Source: Rhodococcus sp. Z13 (GTDB lineage Bacteria; Actinomycetota; Actinomycetes; Mycobacteriales; Mycobacteriaceae). From it: a DNA stretch of 64,000 bases. Position numbers and translations under genes: made by a program. The notes under the pieces were generated by a model. That model ran no database searches. It saw only the letters and a list, made by a program, of their open reading frames with translations, and was not told the origin of the DNA. The stretch covers positions 3,652,668-3,716,667 of the forward strand of contig NZ_CP107551.1 of assembly GCF_025837095.1 (NCBI RefSeq), read 5' to 3'. Every line of letters begins with the position of its first letter. The stretch's first letter is position 1. Shown here piece after piece: positions 11,346-51,798 of the stretch.

Positions 11346-12406
11346 CGCACACTCGCTTCCGTATGTCGTCGGGGACAGGCATGTTTCGCGTCGGGGAGCT
11401 GCTCCCCGCGGAGTTCGGCGAGCACCGCGTCGACGGTGACCGGGGTGAGCAGCACACCGTTGCGGCCGTGCCCGGTGGCGGCCACGACGCGGTCGGACAG
11501 CCGGCCGATCAGCGGCAGGTTGTCGGGGGTCATCGGGCGCAGGCCCGCACTCGCCTCGTACAGCTCGTACTCGCCGAGCGCCGGGAAGATCGTCTCCGCG
11601 TCGGCGATGAGATCGCGCACCCCGGCGACGGTGACCTGCCGGTCGGATGCCTCGTACTGGGTGGCGCCGACGACCAGGCCGTCGTGGCGGGGCACCAGAT
11701 AGGCGGGGCGGCCGTGCACCTCCGCGCGCACGGTGCGCTGCGGCGGCGGGGTCGCGCCGGGCCGCAGCCGCAGCCGCAGGATCTCGCCCTTGACGGGCCG
11801 CACCGGCAGTCCCGGCCACAGCTGCGCCGACGCCCACCCGGCGGCGAGCACCACCTGGTCGTCAGGCAGGTCGGCGAGGTCGTGCACGGCGGCTTCGGAG
11901 AACCGCACCCCGGCCCGCACGGCCGCGACGCGCAGGGCCTCGACGAGCGCCCGGTTGTCGACGGAGAGCTCGGTGGGAGCCAGCAGCCCGAGGCGGATGC
12001 GGGGGCCGAGCGACGGTTCGAGTTCGCGTATCCGGGCGCGGGAGAGCACCTGCATCTCGTGGCCGCGTTCGCCCACCCATTCGGCGACGGTCCGCAGGTC
12101 GGCGGCGTCGGCGGCGTCGAGGGCGACCGTCAGGGAGGCCTCGGCGGTGAACACGTCGGTGCCGGTCTCGGTGCGCAGGGCCTCCGCGAAGCCGGGCCAG
12201 CGGTCCAGGGAGGCTGCGCCGAGGTCGAGGACGTGGTCCTCTCCCGGCCAGCCCTCGGACAGCGGGGCGAGCATGCCCCCGGCCACCCACGAGGCGCCGC
12301 TTCCGGGATTCGGGTCGTGCACGGTGACGGTGTGCCCGGCGCGGGCCGCGCGCCATGCGATCGACAGCCCGATCACTCCGCCACCGACGACGGCAACAGT
12401 TGTCAC
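11342..12406 (-). CDS. thiO: Glycine oxidase
   Basis: ThiO oxidises glycine to the imine needed by ThiG. The 354-residue FAD enzyme of the DAO family starts with the Rossmann motif VAVVGGGVIGLSIAWRAARAG. It continues with GSGASWVAGGMLAPLSEGWPG (FAD contact), VRPVKGEILRL, RPAYLVPRHDGLVVGAT and the C-terminal GLRPMTPDNLPLIG and ATGHGRNGVLLTP. It is the first gene of the thiO-thiS-thiG operon, directly after the TPP riboswitch, so it takes the role served by ThiH in some other bacteria. Confidence 0.95.
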
Positions 12407-12414
12407 AGATCCAC

Positions 12415-12512
12415 CTCACTCCCTGCGCCGGCATGATCCGGGTCAGGTCATAACGGTCGGGGCCGGCAGGCCCCCTCTCAGCCCCGCGTTCCTCGGGACT
12501 CCCGTGTCGTCA
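12415..12512 (-). promoter_or_regulatory. TPP (THI-box) riboswitch controlling thiO-thiS-thiG
   Basis: On the minus strand the conserved THI elements occur in order: GGGGCTGAGAGG (CTGAGA at 12475-12480, pyrimidine-binding loop), then GACCGTT, ACCTGACCCGGATCATGCC (pyrophosphate-sensing helices) and GCAGGGAG closing P1. The aptamer ends only about 10 bases before the thiO ATG, so a Shine-Dalgarno-masking mechanism is likely. The 5' edge is about 25 bases from the divergent thiE start. The transcript for this RNA must therefore begin inside or right beside the 5' end of thiE. Confidence 0.93.
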
Positions 12513-12528
12513 CGTTCCCCCTAGAGGC

Positions 12529-33137: not shown

Positions 33138-34184
33138 TCAGGCGGGGACGGGGTTGCGATGCGGTACGGTCGCCCGCAGGACGGGCGCGACCTCGGCCTG
33201 GAACAGTTCGAGGCTCGCCCGGTACTCGGCCTCGGTGAGGCCGCCGCGGTCGGCGGTGACGTGCATGACCTCGTGCCCGAACCGCTCGTGGTAGCGGAGC
33301 ACCTTGTCGATCACCTGCTGCGGGCTGCCGATGAGCGCGGAGGAGCGTTCGACGAAGTCCTCGATCGTCTCGAAGACGACGGGTAGCCCACTCTGCCTCG
33401 CGAATTCGAGCCGTTGCTCGAACAGTGGCCGGTACCGTTCGACGGCCTCCTGCGAGGTCGGCGCGACGTAGAGGCCGGCGGTGCCGGCCCCGATCCGCGC
33501 CGCCGCGGGATCGTGCCCGTAGGCGACCCAGCGTTCCCGGTAGTGGTCGATGAGCTCGGCGTACGGCTCGATGGGGTTGGTGAGGTTGGCGGAGAAGATC
33601 GGGTCGCCGTACTGCGCGGCCAGATCGACGGATTCGCGGCTGGTAGCGCTGCCGTGCCAGATGGTCGGGCGCTTCTGCAGCGGGCGCGGCACGGTGACGG
33701 CGTCGGACAGTGGCGGCCGGAACCGGCCCTCCCAGGTCACCGTCTCGTTCTCCCACAGAGCCCGGAACAGTCCGTAGCCTTCGCGGTTGCGGTCCCACTG
33801 ATCCTCGGTGGTGACGTGGAACAGCTCGGCCTGGGCGGTGCCGTTGCCCTTGCCGATCATCAACTGCAGGCGGCCGCCGGACAGGTTGTCGAGGGTCGAG
33901 TAGTCCTCGAACGCCCGCACCGGGTCGAGCAGGCTCAACGTCGTGACGCCCGTCCACAGTTCGAGGGTGCTGGTGCGGGCTGCGATGTTGCTCAGCACCA
34001 CCGGTGGCGCCGACGCCAGGAACGGCTTCTCGTGTCGCTCCCCCACCGCGAAGCCTTCGAAGCCGAGCTGTTCGGCGAACACCGCGGTATCGACGACCTC
34101 GCGCAGCCGTTCGGCCGGGGAGACCAGCTCGCCGGTGACGGGATCGGGTTGGTGGATGATCAGGCTCAGCAGCAGGAACTTCAC
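33138..34184 (-). CDS. LLM-class flavin-dependent oxidoreductase (alkanal-monooxygenase-like)
   Basis: The 348-residue luciferase-fold enzyme starts KFLLLSLIIHQPDPVTGE. It carries FAEQLGFEGFAVGERHEKPFLASAPPVVL, WTGVTTLSLLDPVRAFEDYSTLDNLSGGRLQLMIGKGNG and PTIWHGSATSRESVDLAAQYGDP. It is the last gene of the 6-gene operon behind the SAM riboswitch. Its stop codon lies 138 bases before the next operon's first gene. GNAT plus LLM monooxygenase plus polar amino-acid ABC importer parallels the Bacillus YxeK/YxeL/YxeMNO pathway for S-(2-succino)cysteine. A C-S bond cleaving oxygenase is therefore a reasonable inference. Confidence 0.9.
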   Translation of the reverse strand: MKFLLLSLIIHQPDPVTGELVSPAERLREVVDTAVFAEQLGFEGFAVGERHEKPFLASAPPVVLSNIAARTSTLELWTGVTTLSLLDPVRAFEDYSTLDNLSGGRLQLMIGKGNGTAQAELFHVTTEDQWDRNREGYGLFRALWENETVTWEGRFRPPLSDAVTVPRPLQKRPTIWHGSATSRESVDLAAQYGDPIFSANLTNPIEPYAELIDHYRERWVAYGHDPAAARIGAGTAGLYVAPTSQEAVERYRPLFEQRLEFARQSGLPVVFETIEDFVERSSALIGSPQQVIDKVLRYHERFGHEVMHVTADRGGLTEAEYRASLELFQAEVAPVLRATVPHRNPVPA

Positions 34185-34687
34185 GCGGAGGCCGCCTTTC
34201 GGACGAGGTGCTTCTCGAAGGGATGCGGGCCGATCTCCTCGGCCGGCTTCCGGGGGTCGAACAGTGCGGTGTAGCCGGCCGCGAGGTACAGGGCGACCGC
34301 TTCGGGCTGCCGCCATCCGGTGGTGAGGTAGATGCGGGTGTAACCCCGCTGCGCCGCTTCGGCTTCGAGTTCTTCGAGGACGATGCGGCCGAGACCACGG
34401 CGACGGTGGTGCCGCGACGTCCAGATCCGTTTCAGCTCGGCGGTGTCCGCGTCGTAACGCTGGAAGGCGCCACCCGCGACGGGGGTGCCGTCCTCGACGA
34501 GGACGAGGAGCGCACCGTCGGGCGGCGCGAACCGGTCCTCCGGGTAGGTGGTGAGACTTTCGTACTGTTCCTCGAAGGGCCGCTCGTAGCGGGTGCTGTA
34601 CTCGACGGCGAGTTCCTCGAGCAGCGGCGCGGCGAGCGGGTCGTCCTGCCGCACCGCGCGCACCTCGAGCCGGCGGGTACCGCTCAC
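34181..34687 (-). CDS. GNAT-family N-acetyltransferase
   Basis: The 168-residue acetyltransferase shows GALLVLVEDGTPVAGGAF, the acetyl-CoA loop AELKRIWTSRHHRRRGLGRIVLEELE, and the C-terminal YTRIYLTTGWRQPEAVALYLAAGYTALFD. Its stop overlaps the LLM start and its ATG overlaps the oxidoreductase stop, so it is fully coupled. In the analogous Bacillus salvage operons a GNAT acetylates the amino group of the S-modified cysteine before oxidation. That role is inferred here from context only. Confidence 0.9.
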   Translation of the reverse strand: MSGTRRLEVRAVRQDDPLAAPLLEELAVEYSTRYERPFEEQYESLTTYPEDRFAPPDGALLVLVEDGTPVAGGAFQRYDADTAELKRIWTSRHHRRRGLGRIVLEELEAEAAQRGYTRIYLTTGWRQPEAVALYLAAGYTALFDPRKPAEEIGPHPFEKHLVRKAASA

Positions 34688-35817
34688 GAGACCCCCACCT
34701 GCTGGCGGCTGCCGAACCGGAACGGTTCGGGAGCGGTGGCGATGCCGTCCGCGAGGTCGGCGACGAGTTCACCGATGGCGGGGCCGAATTTGAAGCCGTG
34801 CCCGGAGAATCCGGCCGCGACGGTCACGGTTCCGGTGCGGTCGACGACGAAGTTCGAGTCCGGGGTCGTCGTGTAGAGGCAGGTGTCCACTCTGGCACTG
34901 TCGGCATCCACTCCCGGAAGCCACGTCCGCGCGTACTCGACGAGCCGCTCCACACCGCCGGGGTCGGCGACGAAACTGCGGGTGTCGGGATCGACCTGCG
35001 GCCCGGTGCCGTGCTCCCCGATCTTGATGCCGTCGATGGAACCGAGCCCGTAGATCCCCTCCCCCGTGAGCTGCGCGCCGCGGTGGTGGACGAAGCTGGG
35101 CCAGTCGGCGTCCGAGACCGGCACGAAGTGCGCGGGTTGCTCCTGCGTGGTGCGCAGCGGCGGCAGCACGGGACGGGCGGTGAGGTCCGCGGCGTCGAGC
35201 AGGGTGCGGGTCCATGCCCCGGCCGCGACGACGACGTGCCGTGCGTAGATCACGGTGTCGTCGAGGACGACCTCGACCCCGCCGGTGGTCTCGCGGATCA
35301 GCCGCACGCCGCTGGTGTGTCGGACCTCGGCTCCGGCATCGGCCGCCGCCTGCTGGAGTGCGGCGACGGCCCGGTCGGCGTGCAGCCGTCCCGCGTCGGG
35401 GTGGAACAGCACGGTGGTGTCGAATCGGATTCCCGGCCAGCGCTGTTCCGCTTGGTCGGGGGTGAGGAGGGTGTGGTCGATGCCGAGTTCGGTCAGCGAC
35501 CTCGCCTTGGCGTGCACGGCGTCGGGCAGGCCGTGGTCGACCGCGCCGGTGAGGTCGAGCAACCGGGTGCCGGTGGTCTCCTCGAGCTGCCGCCACAGCG
35601 GCAGCGCGCGGGCCGCGAGGGCCGTGTGGAACTGCCCGTCGTAGGCCTGCCGGTAGATGCGGGAGCTGCCGTGCGAGGCTCCCCGGTGGTGGCCGCGCTC
35701 GAACTGTTCGAGCAGGGTCACCCGGCGGCCGCGTGCCGCCAGTCGCCAGGCGGCCGCCGATCCCATGACACCGCCGCCGACGATCACGACGTCGACCGGT
35801 CCGTTGACGCGAGACAT
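34684..35817 (-). CDS. FAD-dependent amine oxidase, sarcosine oxidase / N-methyltryptophan oxidase (SolA) type
   Basis: The 377-residue flavoprotein has the N-terminal Rossmann motif VVIVGGGVMGSAAAWRLAARG, then LLEQFERGHHRGASHGSSRIYRQAY (diagnostic of the monomeric sarcosine oxidase/SolA group), a central VVVAAGAWTRTLL and the C-terminal CLYTTTPDSNFVVDRT followed by AAGFSGHGFKFGPAIGELVADL. Family members oxidise secondary or N-methylated amino acids; the conserved substrate-binding and FAD-linking regions look intact. Within a sulfur-regulated operon it may deaminate or demethylate the imported amino acid (inference). Confidence 0.92.
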   Translation of the reverse strand: MSRVNGPVDVVIVGGGVMGSAAAWRLAARGRRVTLLEQFERGHHRGASHGSSRIYRQAYDGQFHTALAARALPLWRQLEETTGTRLLDLTGAVDHGLPDAVHAKARSLTELGIDHTLLTPDQAEQRWPGIRFDTTVLFHPDAGRLHADRAVAALQQAAADAGAEVRHTSGVRLIRETTGGVEVVLDDTVIYARHVVVAAGAWTRTLLDAADLTARPVLPPLRTTQEQPAHFVPVSDADWPSFVHHRGAQLTGEGIYGLGSIDGIKIGEHGTGPQVDPDTRSFVADPGGVERLVEYARTWLPGVDADSARVDTCLYTTTPDSNFVVDRTGTVTVAAGFSGHGFKFGPAIGELVADLADGIATAPEPFRFGSRQQVGVS

Positions 35818-35840: not shown

Positions 35841-36809
35841 CTAGGAGGTCTTGGGCAGGCCGGGCGGGTTGATCCGCGAGACCTCGATGGCTTCGCTGGT
35901 GATGCCCCACCGTTCGAGAACCTGTGCGTAGGTGCCGTTCTCGATGATGTGGTTGATGGCCTCGTTGATCGCCTCGATCAGGCCGTTGTCCTTCTTCGTC
36001 AGCACCGCGATCTCCCCCTGCAGGTCGAGTCCGGCGCCGGAGAAGGTGCCGGCGACCTCGGTCTCGCCGGATTGCAGGGCGTGGAAGGCCGAGGTCGGGT
36101 TCGGCCCGACGTACGCGTCGATGCGGCCGGAGCCGAGGGCGAGGTAGTAGTCGACGGCGTTCTGGTAGTAGAGGATCTCGGCGGGTGCGAGGCCGGCGGC
36201 GATGTTCTGCTCGTTCCACTCGACGAGCAGCGCCTCCTGGTTGGTGCCGGAGCCGACACCGACCTTCAGTCCGGCGATGTCCTCCGGGCCTTCGAAGGTG
36301 ATGCCACTGTCCTTCTTCACCTCCACGGCGAGACTGTCGAGGCGGTAGGTGGCGAAGTCGTACTTCTCCTTGCGTTCCTCGGTGACGGTGACGTTGGAGA
36401 TGAACAGGTCGGCCTCACCGGAGTCGATGCGCACGAAGTTCTGCGCCCAGTCCGCGGCGGTGAGTTCGACGTCGAGGTCGAGGACGTTGCCGATGAGATG
36501 GGCGAAGTCGGTTTCCGAACCGATGATCGTCGCGTCGTCGTCGGCGTAGAAGCGCAGCGGTGGGACGGTACCGGCCGACCCGGTGACGACGAGGGTGCCG
36601 CGGTCGCGGATGTCCTGGGGTACCTTGGCGGCGATTTCCTCGACCGGTTCGGTGGTGATGCGGTTCTGGTCCGCGGTGAGGTTGTAGCCGGCGTCGGTGG
36701 CCGCGTCGGCCTCGGCGGTGGGTCCGGAGCTGCAGGCCGTGGTGCCCAGGAGAGCGAAAGCGGCCAGGGCCGAGGCGAACACGCGTGCCCGGCGGGTGGA
36801 AGCGAACAT
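35841..36809 (-). CDS. Polar amino-acid-binding lipoprotein (family 3)
   Basis: The 322-residue solute-binding protein has a signal peptide ending in LLGTTAC (lipobox) and the family-3 fold: RDRGTLVVTGSAGTVPPLRFYADD, SETDFAHLIGNVLDLDVELTAADW, DLFISNVTVTEERKEKYDFATYR, DIAGLKVGVGSGTNQEALL and YYLALGSGRIDAYVGPN. The ligand is probably an amino acid or a modified amino acid. It belongs with the permease and ATPase genes just upstream (35-base gap). Confidence 0.93.
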   Translation of the reverse strand: MFASTRRARVFASALAAFALLGTTACSSGPTAEADAATDAGYNLTADQNRITTEPVEEIAAKVPQDIRDRGTLVVTGSAGTVPPLRFYADDDATIIGSETDFAHLIGNVLDLDVELTAADWAQNFVRIDSGEADLFISNVTVTEERKEKYDFATYRLDSLAVEVKKDSGITFEGPEDIAGLKVGVGSGTNQEALLVEWNEQNIAAGLAPAEILYYQNAVDYYLALGSGRIDAYVGPNPTSAFHALQSGETEVAGTFSGAGLDLQGEIAVLTKKDNGLIEAINEAINHIIENGTYAQVLERWGITSEAIEVSRINPPGLPKTS

Positions 36810-36844: not shown

Positions 36845-37627
36845 TCAGAGAACGCGGGACAGGAATGCCGCGGTGCGTTCGTGTTTCGGGTGGTCGAGGA
36901 CGTCCCGGGGTGGGCCCTGTTCGACGATGACGCCGCCGTCCATGAACACGACGGTGTCGGCGACCTCGCGGGCGAAACCGATCTCGTGGGTGACGATCAC
37001 GAGGGTCGCGCCGTCGAGGGACAGGTCACGGATGACGTCGAGCACCTCACCGACGAGTTCCGGGTCGAGCGCCGAGGTGGGTTCGTCGAAGAGGATCACC
37101 GCCGGTCGCAGTGCCAGCGCACGGGCGATGGCCACGCGCTGTTGCTGCCCGCCGGACAGTTGCTTCGGGTAGTCGTGGAGCTTGTCGCCGACGCCCACCC
37201 GCTCGAGCAGCGCGCGGGCCTCCGTCTCGACCTCGGCGCGGTCGCGTCCCTGCGCCGAGACGGGTGCCTCGACGACGTTCTCCAGCACCGTCAGGTGCGG
37301 GAAGAGGTTGAAGTTCTGGAACACGAACCCGATCCGGGAGCGCTGCCGGAGGATGTCGCGGGCCCGCAACTCGTGGAGTTTGTCGCCGCGCCGCTTGTAA
37401 CCGATCAGTTCACCGTCGATGCGCACGGTGCCCCGGTCCACCTTCTCGAGGTGGTTGAGGGTGCGCAGCAGGGTGGACTTCCCGGATCCGGACGGGCCGA
37501 GGATCACCGTCACGGTGCCCCTGCGCAACTGCAGGTCGATGCCTTTGAGGACCTCGTTGGCACCGAAGGACTTGTGGACACCGCGCACGTCGACGACGTG
37601 GTCGACGTCGTCCCGGGTGGCGGTCAT
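36845..37627 (-). CDS. Polar amino-acid ABC transporter ATP-binding protein
   Basis: The 260-residue ATPase has Walker [17 protein letters not shown], the signature [17 protein letters not shown], Walker [21 protein letters not shown] and switch [13 protein letters not shown], all typical of the GlnQ/TcyN class. About 20 residues ([19 protein letters not shown]) extend the loop after the first strands, as in several cystine/S-compound transporters. The ATG overlaps the permease stop (ATGA). Confidence 0.95.
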
Positions 37628-38595
37628 CGGGTCGCTCCCCGGGGTGCGCCGATGCCGCCGTCGCGGATCTCGCGGTACCGGGCGACGACCCGCTGCCAGG
37701 GGGTGGGAGGCAGTTCGCGGGCCGCACCGCGGGCGTAGTACCGCTCGACGTAGTACTGCCCGATCGAGAGCAGCGTGGTCAGGACGATGTACCAGACGGT
37801 CGCGACCATGAGCATGGGCACCACCCGACCGGTGCGACCGAAGATGACCTGGACCTGATAGAACAGTTCGGCGATCGCCATCGTGGAGACGATGGAGGTG
37901 CCCTTGAACAGGCTGATCACCTCGTTGGCGGCGTTCGGGAGGATCGCGCGCATCGCCTGCGGCAGCACGATCTTCACGAACTGGCGGCGTCGCGGGATGC
38001 CGAGGGCGTTGGCCGCTTCGATCTGGCCGTGGTCGACGGAGATGATGCCGGCGCGGATGATCTCGGCGGAGTAGGCCGCCTGGTGCAGGGCCAGACCGAT
38101 CACGGCGGCGGTGAACCCGGAGATCACGCCGGAGACACCGAACTCGAAGAAGGCCGGCCCGAACGGGATTCCGATGCTGAGCGTCTGGTACAGGTACGCG
38201 ATGTTGAACCAGAACAGCAGCTGGACGATGAGCGGGATGGATCGGAACGCCCAGATGTAGGTCCACGAGATGACCTGCAGCACCGGGTTGTTCGACAAAC
38301 GCCCGATCGCCAGCAGCACACCGAGCGCGAAGCCCAGTACCGTGCCCCACAGGGTGAGCTTGATCGTCATCCACAGTGCGGACAGCACCGAGGAGGCGGT
38401 GAAGTACTGCGCGAAGGTCGCCCAGTCCCAGCCGGGATTGGTGATCAGGCCGTGGACGAACTGGGCGGCGACGACGAGTACCGCGATGCTGATCACCCAG
38501 CGCCAGGGATGCCAGGTGCGGGCGACGACGAGGTTGTCGTCGTCACGAGGGTCGATCGTCGCGTCGTCGACGCGGATGTCGGTCGGCGCGCTCAT
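37624..38595 (-). CDS. Polar amino-acid ABC transporter permease
   Basis: The 323-residue permease has a first hydrophobic helix at about 33-50 ([18 protein letters not shown]), followed by a HisM/GlnP-type five-helix core. It includes [27 protein letters not shown] and the EAA loop [31 protein letters not shown]. As first gene of the 6-gene operon it follows the leader peptide by about 130 bases. The long N-terminal cytoplasmic extension is a common variant. Confidence 0.94.
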
Positions 38596-38653
38596 CGCGA
38601 CGTCCTGCGGACAGCAGACATCGTGGGAACCTTTCGGGAATGCGAGGGGACGC

Positions 38654-38692
38654 GTGCGCCCGGCCCGTCCCCCGCGAGCGGGGCGGGCACAC
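38654..38692 (-). promoter_or_regulatory. Attenuator-like hairpin between leader peptide and permease gene
   Basis: On the minus strand GTGTGCCCG (38692-38684) pairs with CGGGCGCAC (38662-38654). The loop region holds a second stem, CCCCGC/GCGGGG. It lies 33 bases after the leader stop and 58 bases before the permease start. No U-run follows, so a Rho-type or translational attenuation mechanism would be needed. Confidence 0.45.
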
Positions 38693-38724
38693 GAGAGCAG
38701 CAGGGGTCGTTCGGAGGTGGCGCG

Positions 38725-38805
38725 TCAGCGACACCGGCAGGACGCGCCGCGTCGCAGGTCGATGTGCCGGCGGCGCCACGAAGCGCGCTCGGTGCTGCGA
38801 GTCAT
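38725..38805 (-). CDS. Cysteine-ended regulatory leader peptide
   Basis: A 26-residue reading frame with an excellent GGAGG Shine-Dalgarno. Its core RRRHIDLRRGASCRCR matches the actinobacterial leader peptides (RRHIDL...C) known upstream of sulfur-metabolism genes. Two Cys codons lie in the last four codons before the stop. Ribosome stalling there under cysteine limitation would fit the cysteine-responsive attenuators described in mycobacteria. The Shine-Dalgarno overlaps the 3' P1 strand of the SAM riboswitch upstream, so leader translation can itself be SAM-gated. Confidence 0.85.
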   Translation of the reverse strand: MTRSTERASWRRRHIDLRRGASCRCR

Positions 38806-38814
38806 GTCCTGCCT

Positions 38815-38902
38815 CCATCGGTCCCGGCGGTAGCACCCGCACCCGCGCACGGGGGGTTGCTGCGGCGTCGTCGAGCCAGGTCTCTCGGCCGCTCTGGATG
38901 GT
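38815..38902 (-). promoter_or_regulatory. S-box (SAM-I-like) riboswitch, compact variant
   Basis: The minus strand carries the S-box core in order: P1 strand CCATC with CAGAGCGG, GAGAGACCTGGCTCGACGA, CGCCGCAGCAACC, a GC-rich P3 stem, GGTGCTACCGCC, and the closing P1 strand GATGG. Positions identical to classic SAM-I include AGAG..GG, GA.CTGGC.CGA.GA, GCAACC and GGTGC. The usual P4 stem after GGTGCTA is missing or very short, so this is a variant. P1's 3' strand (38819-38815) overlaps the leader Shine-Dalgarno (38816-38812). A transcript from the -10 at 38911-38916 would begin about 2 bases before P1. Confidence 0.82.
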
Positions 38903-38910
38903 CGCGGATC

Positions 38911-38951
38911 AAGCTACGCAGTGCGGCGGGGCGATCCCACCCTTTCTCTCA
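38911..38951 (-). promoter_or_regulatory. Predicted promoter of the SAM-riboswitch operon with shared motif
   Basis: Minus-strand TGAGAGAAAGGGT (38951-38939) is followed after exactly 22 bases by TAGCTT (38916-38911), a TANNNT -10 box. This is the same arrangement as at 33062-33102 (motif 12 of 13 identical, spacing identical). Confidence 0.62.
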
Positions 38952-39042
38952 TGCTGGCGCGAATCGGGGCGAAAGGGATGGACGAGACCGTCGTCGGTTG
39001 CGGTTTTCCGACCGGTTCCCGGTATCTTCGCCGGTCTCGACC

Positions 39043-39900
39043 TCACACGGAGGCACCCGCCGCGCGCAGGGCACGCCGCACACGCTCGACGAGAACGTGC
39101 GGTCGCCGGTACAGCAGGTCGGCGCCGACGCGGATGACGGTCCACCCCAGCTCGGGCAGCCGCGCGTAGCGGTCGATGTCGAGGGTGCGCTGCGCGGGGT
39201 CGGTCCAGTGCTGCACACCGTCGTACTCGACCAGCCTCCTCCATTCCTTCCAGCCCATGTCGGCGCGGGCCACGAACCCGGCGTCGTCGAAGATCTCGAT
39301 CTGGGTCTCGGGCCTGGGCAAGCCCGCTCGAACCAGGAGGAGACGCGTGTGGGTTTCCGGAGGTGATGCAGCCCCACCGTCCGCGAGTTCCAGAACGGTG
39401 CGCATGCGGAGGAGATGCCGAGCTCCCTTGTGCCGTGCGGCGACGGCCTCGATCTCGGGGATCTTCAGGCCGGTGGCGTTGCACAGCGCGTCGACCATCT
39501 CGACGGACCTGTCGACGTCGTGGCTCCGGGCCAGGTCGAAGCCCGTCCGCGCGGGTGTCGTCACCGTCATGCCGTCGACGGCGCAGGTCTCGATGCCGGG
39601 GATGTTGCGGACGACGATGCCCGGACACGACCGCAGCTTGCCCGGCCTGACGATCTCCGCCGGAAGAGTGGGGTCGAGCCATCGGGTGCCGTGCACGGCG
39701 GCTGCGGAGACACCGGCGAGTACACCGGTCGACCCGGCCCACAGCCACGCCGCCTTCGCCCGGAGCAGGGCGGCCGGCTCGACGCCCGGTGCGATGTAGA
39801 CGTTCCGGTGCAGCTTCCGGAAGTGGTGGGTGAGGCCGTGTCGTGTCACCAGTCCGGCGGCGCGGGCGTCGGTGCCCCGGAACGGTTCGTCGAGGTTCAT
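39043..39900 (-). CDS. DUF559-domain protein (AbiEi/Vsr-like)
   Basis: The 285-residue protein begins with a winged-helix-like segment (RGTDARAAGLVTRHGLTHHFRKLHRNVYIAPG) related to AbiEi antitoxin domains. It ends with a Vsr/DUF559 endonuclease-like domain: ADMGWKEWRRLVEYDGVQHWTDPAQRTLDIDRYARLPELGWTVIRV, in which the E-x-D and Q pattern of the restriction-like fold is visible. Such genes are abundant in mycobacteria and rhodococci, and their function is not established. It stands alone between the sulfur operon promoter and the TauE gene. The stand-alone gene does not look like a full toxin-antitoxin system. Confidence 0.82.
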   Translation of the reverse strand: MNLDEPFRGTDARAAGLVTRHGLTHHFRKLHRNVYIAPGVEPAALLRAKAAWLWAGSTGVLAGVSAAAVHGTRWLDPTLPAEIVRPGKLRSCPGIVVRNIPGIETCAVDGMTVTTPARTGFDLARSHDVDRSVEMVDALCNATGLKIPEIEAVAARHKGARHLLRMRTVLELADGGAASPPETHTRLLLVRAGLPRPETQIEIFDDAGFVARADMGWKEWRRLVEYDGVQHWTDPAQRTLDIDRYARLPELGWTVIRVGADLLYRRPHVLVERVRRALRAAGASV

Positions 39901-49302: not shown

Positions 49303-49460
49303 CGAAAACAGTACGGCTGCAACGGCGCGTTGCGGCACGTCCCGTCCTTCGTCCGAGGAACAGTACGTACGAACCCGCGGCGCCGGCTGACCTGGCTCAC
49401 CCGGGGGTACGGGCTCACAGTTGCGGGACAGCGCCGGAATTGCACCGGCTTCACCGAAAA
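49303..49460 (-). promoter_or_regulatory. Cobalamin riboswitch
   Basis: Minus-strand conserved elements appear in order: GAAGCCGGTGCAATTCCGG, CGCTGTCCCGCAACTGTGAG (the core of cobalamin riboswitches) and the B12-box-like GAGCCAGGTCAGCC, then the linker to the Shine-Dalgarno hairpin. It lies directly upstream of btuF-btuC-btuD-cobU. The 5' side (P1/P2) abuts the metZ terminator, so the aptamer's first helices may overlap that hairpin. Confidence 0.9.
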
Positions 49461-49501
49461 CGCTGCGGGTGTCCTGTCGAGTCGACAGGACACCCGCAGC
49501 G
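49461..49501 (-). terminator. metZ terminator
   Basis: Perfect 20-base arms (49461-49480 and 49482-49501; the centre includes palindromic GTCGAC) lie 19 bases after the metZ stop. The minus strand then reads TTTTC, giving a short U-run, so this is a good intrinsic terminator. It lies next to the 5' edge of the cobalamin riboswitch. Confidence 0.85.
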
Positions 49502-49520
49502 TAACTCACGGCTCAGCAGG

Positions 49521-51723: not shown

Positions 51724-51798
51724 ATGGCCACCACGCAGCTCGTTCGACGCCTCGCCGTCGACCTGTGCCGTCTGTGTGCCCACATGTGTTGTCGCTGA
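51724..51798 (+). CDS. Cysteine-rich regulatory leader peptide upstream of fprA
   Basis: A 24-residue frame with AGGA 8 bases upstream of its ATG. Its core RRLAVDLCRLCAHMCCR is rich in cysteine: two single Cys, then Cys-Cys before the last Arg and stop. It fits the polycysteine leader peptides that attenuate sulfur-related genes in actinobacteria. It lies 135 bases upstream of fprA. Low cysteine would stall ribosomes on the late Cys codons (inference). Confidence 0.78.
   Translation: MATTQLVRRLAVDLCRLCAHMCCR

Follow-up and report, generated by a model that had tools for sequence, protein, structure and literature searches.

SAM-I riboswitches on sulfur genes are OFF switches. Tandem riboswitches, such as the SAM and B12 pair before metE, combine two inputs with NOR-like logic, and the tandem attenuators of Salmonella mgtCBR reportedly stack two controls that include short ORFs within a single leader. 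Rho prefers C-rich, G-poor RNA.

Actinobacterial Cys leaders are short ORFs with Cys codons near the stop, located before sulfur genes (Seliverstov et al. 2005, PMC1262725; NF042934; Canestrari et al. 2020), and the leader described below shares these traits. In the part of Seliverstov et al. (2005; PMC1262725) available to us, no conserved terminator accompanies the Cys leaders, as is also the case here, and Rho is proposed for them, albeit weakly; the same text notes a direct overlap between the base stems of actinobacterial riboswitches and the translation start. Leaderless polycysteine sORFs are attributed to Canestrari et al. (2020) in the accessible portions of PMC9031893 and PMC13236596. 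In Mycobacterium tuberculosis, B12 riboswitches of ppe2 and metE are associated with translated uORFs (Kipkorir et al. 2024, PMC11260477), and the available text describes a NUGA overlap with termination-reinitiation into the gene, an arrangement comparable to the second short ORF of the present locus. Based on excerpts of the respective articles, the Sinorhizobium metA leader carries a SAM-II riboswitch acting on a Shine-Dalgarno (SD) sequence away from the main start (PMC9373788), and metL of S. lividans, located before metNIQ, is a short Cys/Met leader ahead of a sulfur amino-acid importer (PMC8079986). Here we describe a locus on the minus strand of a 64,000-nt stretch of the Rhodococcus sp. 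Z13 genome (the window) in which a SAM-I riboswitch and a Cys leader are stacked.

SAM-I aptamer at the Shine-Dalgarno sequence of a leader ORF

A preliminary description of the window had proposed an S-box-like aptamer on the minus strand, possibly of a divergent class, to be checked by covariance-model search. Using cmscan, we identified a SAM-I riboswitch (S-box, RF00162) at 38904-38812 (minus strand) with a score of 55.9 bits (E 3.4e-10; gathering threshold 44.4 bits), which places the aptamer in the SAM family as proposed; a model search of the whole 4.53-Mb source genome returned no other RF00162 match. RF00162 was the best-scoring model of its clan, with one other clan match scoring lower, and SAM-I/IV and SAM-IV, not being the best model, were rejected as classes for this aptamer. 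Elsewhere in the window, a TPP riboswitch (12403-12515, minus strand) and a cobalamin riboswitch (49363-49512, minus strand) also scored above Rfam gathering.

The 5' strand of P1, CCATC (38897-38901), pairs with GATGG (38819-38815), and, as the preliminary description had pointed out, GATGG shares bases with the leader SD, GGAGG (38816-38812); the overlap amounts to two G. This junction, GATGGAGG (38812-38819), occurred at 98 of 150 SAM-I loci from the same bacterial family, with GATGGAAG at another 22 of the 150. P1 covers only two of the five SD bases, which counts against the mechanism that we favor below. The pseudoknot strands are CCTGG in the P2 loop (38876-38880) and CCGGG in J3/4 (38823-38827), the latter placed by eye from the alignment of relatives, among which the two strands covary by eye (CCTGG/CCAGG, CCCGG/CCGGG, CTTGG/CCAAG and TCCGG/CCGGA).

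The lack of P4, likewise remarked upon in the preliminary description, proved general. In 143 of 150 relatives, GGTG starts exactly 18 nt ahead of the P1 3' strand, a spacing shared by the window that leaves no space for P4; four further relatives have a spacing of 17 or 22 nt, and three were mis-measured. The RF00162 alignment of the window aptamer passes over the model's P4 stretch, and because the RF00162 score is reached despite the missing P4, the aptamer represents a P4-less SAM-I subtype. As judged from its sequence, it is a P4-less form of RF00162 common to relatives, not the divergent class that had been suggested.

Cys leader ORF and its conservation

The ORF at 38805-38725 (minus strand) encodes, in 26 codons, the Cys leader peptide MTRSTERASWRRRHIDLRRGASCRCR, which ends in RRRHIDLRRGASCRCR; this is the 26-residue, Cys-ended leader with two Cys codons reported previously. 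Its ATG at 38805 lies six bases past the SD, and the Cys codons are TGC (38739-38737) and TGT (38733-38731, both minus strand), with the terminal TGT as the likely stall codon, based on the TGT bias among leaders given below. The peptide is similar to NF042934, a family of actinobacterial Cys leaders, yet its score of 23.9 bits (E 2.3e-5) falls under the curated cut-off of 27; a genome-wide NF042934 search recovered it at 22.0 bits. It carries the motif R-H-V/I-D-L-x-R with a Cys near the stop (RRHIDLRRGASCRCR). The window leader has DLRR and is without the DLC cysteine, a point that we count against the favored explanation.

We searched 401 genomes of the same family with RF00162; 114 had a match, and among the matches listed we examined 150 loci from 107 genomes. 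An HxDL-type leader was present right behind the aptamer at 82 of the 150 loci (59 of the 107 genomes), such that the stacking of aptamer and Cys leader first noted in the window is a conserved arrangement. The remaining loci comprised 12 with another short Cys ORF (doubtful in L002, L003, L104, L127 and L150), 39 with a structural start within 40 nt, and 17 unclassed, several of which (L025, L087, L117 and L147) are probably direct. Genes were called by GC3-based frame choice, and some starts are still wrong (e.g., L063, L097 and L120). Among 144 distinct downstream regions, 79 contained the leader motif and 73 a strict version of it, whereas 40 rounds of shuffling of these regions gave a mean of 0.30 matches (maximum 2) and none to the strict motif.

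The leader was found behind SAM-I in 8 of 13 genera examined and at one locus of a ninth. By genus group, it was present at 7 of 8 loci in the window's own genus (g1), 2 of 4 in g4, 29 of 39 in g6, 1 of 5 in g11, 3 of 3 in g14, 2 of 2 in g18, 2 of 6 in g22, 35 of 43 in g24 and 1 of 26 in g23; it was absent at the examined loci of g3 (3), g9 (8), g12 (1) and g29 (2). Sorted by downstream cluster, with each family named from one or two representatives, leaders preceded 34 of 54 permease loci, 41 of 51 SBP_bac_5 loci, all five OsmC loci and both SsuA-like loci; the 14 LLM loci of cluster 2 had no leader. In g23, the riboswitch lies directly on a homologous permease (L028, L029 and L069); at L121, L123 and L128 it lies directly on a small ORF, VIIEDPS (then stop), which overlaps the permease start (GTGA/ATGA); and at L045, in the window's genus, it is followed by the coupling ORF MTSPARSGSA (then stop) with no Cys leader. 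Because the riboswitch can directly precede a structural start (39/150) or, in relatives of the window's own operon (L045, L121, L123 and L128), the coupling ORF, the leader occupies the place of a SAM-controlled cistron.

In two genomes of the family, a single cluster carries a pair of switches separated by 7-11 kb (G280:C1:1130653 and 1141436, loci L036 and L040; G265:C2:5341970 and 5349228, loci L060 and L047); in each pair, one switch is on a permease operon and the other on an SBP_bac_5 operon. The OsmC-cluster genes behind a stacked leader are those of L111, L112, L115, L124 and L125, and in L111 and L112 the DLCR Cys is the leader's only Cys. Minimal nine-codon leaders (MNICTCTHA and variants) follow the same riboswitch at L030, L036, L042, L044 and L131, and L099 and L100 have a degraded minimal leader with one Cys.

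For codon constraint, we used 54 non-redundant 14-codon blocks out of 82 distinct blocks, from 137 leaders. Over 13 codons, the leader frame had no stops and a mean amino-acid entropy of 1.42 in the 54 blocks; the other two frames had stops in 14 and 1 of the 54, with entropies of 1.92 and 2.06. Conservation covers the residues R-H-V/I-D-L-C-R and the terminal Cys, the latter kept in 51 of the 54 blocks, and third positions vary, most of all in Arg codons; this retention of amino acids during third-position drift points to selection on the leader peptide. The terminal Cys is encoded by TGT in 83 of 90 distinct leaders in which it is not the DLC Cys, and the DLC Cys by TGC in 73 of 80, and TGT accounts for 55 of 411 Cys codons in nearby genes. 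Of 93 leaders, 77 have their last Cys at most three codons away from the stop; since the leaders are related, these codon and position counts are not independent. Single-Cys leaders (10/93) and degraded leaders (e.g., MNTCIRTPA) occur in some relatives and count against the favored explanation.

Other Cys leaders of the source genome

Besides the window leader, the NF042934 search listed 17 matches at E values up to 10, two of them above the cut-off, and we read the best seven (L151-L155, L157 and L158). All seven lack a riboswitch, and in all seven the Cys series ends with TGT; the codon bias is thus a trait of the leader family, not of the riboswitch, and we count this against the favored explanation. 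By eye, a NANNNT box ends 7 nt ahead of the start in five of the seven, and in six the 14 nt ahead of the start contain no SD-like run (the other has AGGA), as if most of these leaders were leaderless. Given the missing SD-like runs, only the SAM-linked leader has a clear SD among those read. We searched six of the downstream proteins, and Pfam families matched four of them: cysteine dioxygenase, DUF4395, a NAD-binding reductase and an LLM-like protein (the last below cut-off). Another Cys leader ORF lies within the window at 51739-51774 (plus strand), where a profile match identified MATTQLVRRLAVDLCRLCAHMCCR, followed by its stop, ahead of a NAD-binding reductase that is FprA-like by eye.

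Importer operon and second short ORF

Family matches agree with the amino-acid importer and oxygenase operon of the preliminary description, with cystine-like importer genes and oxidoreductases downstream of the leader (all on the minus strand). The first gene encodes an ABC permease of the cystine/polar amino-acid type (37624-38595; PF00528), with a cystine permease as best NCBIfam match (136.7 bits, cut-off 300). It is followed by an ABC ATPase (36845-37600, start approximate), TcyN-like at 313.4 bits over frame residues 260-508 (cut-off 406), and a solute-binding protein of family 3 (35841-36809; PF00497); for all three proteins, NCBIfam gives cystine systems as the closest relatives, with every score under its cut-off. 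Further downstream are a DAO-type FAD amino-acid oxidoreductase (34684-35796; PF01266) and a CE1758-like luciferase-like monooxygenase (33138-34190; PF00296, with TIGR04036 below cut-off), both with approximate starts.

Two features absent from the preliminary description lie between the leader and the permease gene: a C-rich spacer, treated below, and a second short ORF of nine codons (38592-38621, minus strand; the stretch 38635-38630 lies just upstream), whose stop overlaps the permease start (ATGA). Counterparts of this coupling ORF were present in 46 of 54 permease-cluster loci (doubtful in L116, a match of two codons), kept in position and unconserved in peptide sequence.

Leader-to-gene structure and spacer composition

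The hairpin that had been noted at 38654-38692 (minus strand) formed exactly so in the predicted minimum free energy fold; as a conserved switching element it did not hold up, as the 120-nt stretch containing it was no better folded than dinucleotide shuffles (z +0.25). Across 75 relatives, the folding z averaged -0.71, with 15% below -2; strong leader-to-gene hairpins were seen in some (L079, z -4.34; L051, z -2.65). We found no T-run terminator in 38560-39100 and no classical transcription attenuator composed of an intrinsic terminator and a competing antiterminator. When a ribosome was modeled on the last Cys codon, access to the next SD went from 0.41 to 0.42 at 33 permease loci and from 0.29 to 0.30 at 29 SBP_bac_5 loci; loci with a failed SD pattern or duplicate sequence were left out, and the SD picks for L019 and L116 are doubtful. 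The unchanged SD access, the lack of a terminator and the z scores together led us to reject a conserved attenuator hairpin.

The 90 nt past the leader stop are C-rich and G-poor, with a C-G skew, (C-G)/(C+G), averaging 0.215 and positive at 79 of 82 loci, compared with 0.036 in genes, 0.005 upstream of the aptamer and 0.039 in 52 control pre-gene regions, 19% of which exceed 0.15. In the window, this spacer (38635-38724, minus strand) has a skew of 0.21 and is a candidate Rho loading region. The skew is weaker in g1 (mean 0.12, 7 loci), g22 (0.09) and g23 (0.06), and we count this, together with the 19% of control regions above 0.15, against the favored explanation. The C-rich spacer, the RNA preference of Rho and the proposal in the available text of Seliverstov et al. 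(PMC1262725) lead us to favor Rho-dependent attenuation. Composition, the one basis for placing Rho at this locus, fits such a role, albeit weakly in the window's own genus.

Occurrence beyond the family

In the wider order, RF00162 matched 314 of 397 genomes, and the aptamers among the matches listed were mostly longer (104-143 nt), with space for P4. At the best 30 of these loci, a start codon lay close behind P1 in 26 (by eye, of a thrC-like gene) and in L166 there was none; the aptamer was misplaced in three of the 30 (L160, L174 and L184). No Cys leader was seen by eye among these 30 loci.

A pattern scan of genome contigs identified 55 stretches. Besides Rhodococcus, Rhodococcoides and Williamsia, they come from an Actinomycetota MAG and from Pseudonocardia, Geodermatophilus, Blastococcus and Kineosporia, genera to which they extend the stacked layout; the pattern fixes the P1 sequence, letting other forms escape, and the 55 stretches overlap with the 150-locus set. 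A Blastococcus leader, MRYELLSWARRHVDLCRTGTAMCR, stands ahead of an ABC ATPase that is MetN-like by eye, and a Pseudonocardia leader reads MFVGVQRRHVDLLRTASAGCRA, with an LLM-like gene, by eye, downstream of a few of the Pseudonocardia leaders. RF00162 scored above gathering in 19 of 20 sources (including the window, L001; L201 fell below) and, in a second set, at 13 of 17 named loci, with L194, L224, L228 and L229 below; the aptamers of L243, L196, L200 and L209 score as SAM-I. Three of the loci under the threshold, from the MAG and Kineosporia (L194, L201 and L229), reached 40.5-42.3 bits, just under 44.4 (Kineosporia: L201, 42.3 bits; L229, 41.2 bits). In three Blastococcus loci (L237, L239 and L241), a tmRNA gene lies ~0.2-1.1 kb from the riboswitch.

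Proposed mechanism and alternatives

The explanation that we favor, and consider probable albeit by no means secure, is that a single message is read by two sulfur sensors in series, with the operon expressed only if neither SAM nor Cys is abundant (NOR logic) and with Rho-dependent output. Starting from features present in the sequence itself (the riboswitch, the P1/SD overlap, the conserved leader frame with its Cys codons, the coupling ORF and the C-rich spacer), we infer SAM binding, Cys stalling, Rho action and coupling, and hence the NOR logic. With SAM bound, P1 would close and cover the first bases of the leader SD, and the Cys leader would go untranslated; the C-rich spacer would then be bare, and transcription would stop, most likely via Rho. 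At low SAM, the leader would be translated, and with plentiful Cys-tRNA the ribosome would complete the ORF and depart, opening the spacer to Rho. With both SAM and Cys low, the ribosome would wait at the terminal UGU beside the stop and shield the spacer, allowing polymerase to enter the importer/oxidoreductase operon, and the permease would be translated through coupling from the second short ORF.

A translational output from the same two sensors, in which the stalled ribosome opens a structure hiding the SD of the second short ORF or the permease and Rho plays no part, appears rather unlikely: secondary sources, in their accessible parts, report translation attenuation for M. smegmatis Cys leaders (PMC9031893; PMC13236596), and some relatives have the strong hairpins given above (L079 and L051), whereas modeled SD access did not change and the structure is unconserved over the 75 loci. 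We are more doubtful still that SAM alone controls the operon, with the leader as a relay cistron that keeps the message alive and Cys codons that sense no Cys. Single-Cys leaders, leaders with degraded Cys content, and the 39 of 150 loci with a riboswitch directly before the gene and no leader, would suit that reading; the near-constant terminal Cys (51/54 blocks), nearly always a rare codon, argues against it, as does the fact that the leader family also occurs on its own elsewhere in the source genome, in at least one case ahead of a cysteine dioxygenase gene.

An opposite sign, by which the translated leader would act as a repressive uORF on the operon and SAM binding would raise expression, has a precedent in the available text on M. 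tuberculosis, where metE is repressed by a uORF inside its riboswitch (PMC11260477). We consider it very improbable, because SAM-I switches on sulfur genes are established as OFF switches, and because in relatives the P1/SD arrangement sits at homologous importer genes themselves, a position from which bound SAM would only repress. High-GC DNA is full of open frames, and a chance ORF behind an ordinary riboswitch might have been expected on that ground; the comparative data (79 of 144 regions against 0.30 from shuffles, and the codon-position pattern) refute this reading and leave it almost no probability.

The series arrangement with Rho-dependent output, our favored explanation, can be extended to a claim that we advance tentatively and with less than even confidence: that this is a widespread actinobacterial device in which the aptamer controls no gene but licenses a ribosome-based sensor, giving a SAM/Cys series NOR on one RNA, with wobble-read UGU tuned as a Cys probe, Rho as actuator, and evolutionary gain or loss of the leader in the interval from riboswitch to gene. 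If true, nature would here use a series gate, with a metabolite riboswitch controlling whether an amino-acid-sensing ribosome is loaded at all. The conserved layout, its occurrence in Rhodococcus species used in the laboratory, and its natural variants (direct, leader-less and minimal-leader, some on the same kind of operon) make the logic directly testable. The P4-less SAM-I subtype would thereby gain a function-linked context, and the layout suggests that a single rare Cys codon is under selection.

Comparison with known systems

The aptamer is like SAM-I (RF00162) in its above-gathering score, its core, its pseudoknot strands and the position of P1 at the regulatory site; it differs in that P4 is missing, no terminator was found, and P1 lies on the SD of a leader peptide and not on that of a structural gene. 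Tandem SAM and B12 riboswitches are two aptamers in parallel, whereas here an aptamer would gate a ribosome-based sensor in series. The mgtCBR leader is said to have two ORFs and no metabolite aptamer on the SD of either.

Based on the accessible portions of the literature cited above, known Cys leaders occur on their own, and those of mycobacteria are leaderless, whereas here the leader SD begins inside riboswitch P1. The metL leader of S. lividans is reported to be leaderless, with no riboswitch described in the part of PMC8079986 available to us. The Sinorhizobium metA leader belongs to another riboswitch class, and the available text of PMC9373788 describes no Cys leader peptide. In the part of PMC11260477 available to us, ppe2/metE have one input and no amino-acid-sensing leader is described; within that scope, the riboswitch-controlled uORF of M. 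tuberculosis is the nearest published idea. Among the papers listed by our searches of the open-licence literature, none reported a Cys leader with a SAM riboswitch set upon it. The riboswitch and the Cys leader are each known, and their combination in series is the part that appears new.
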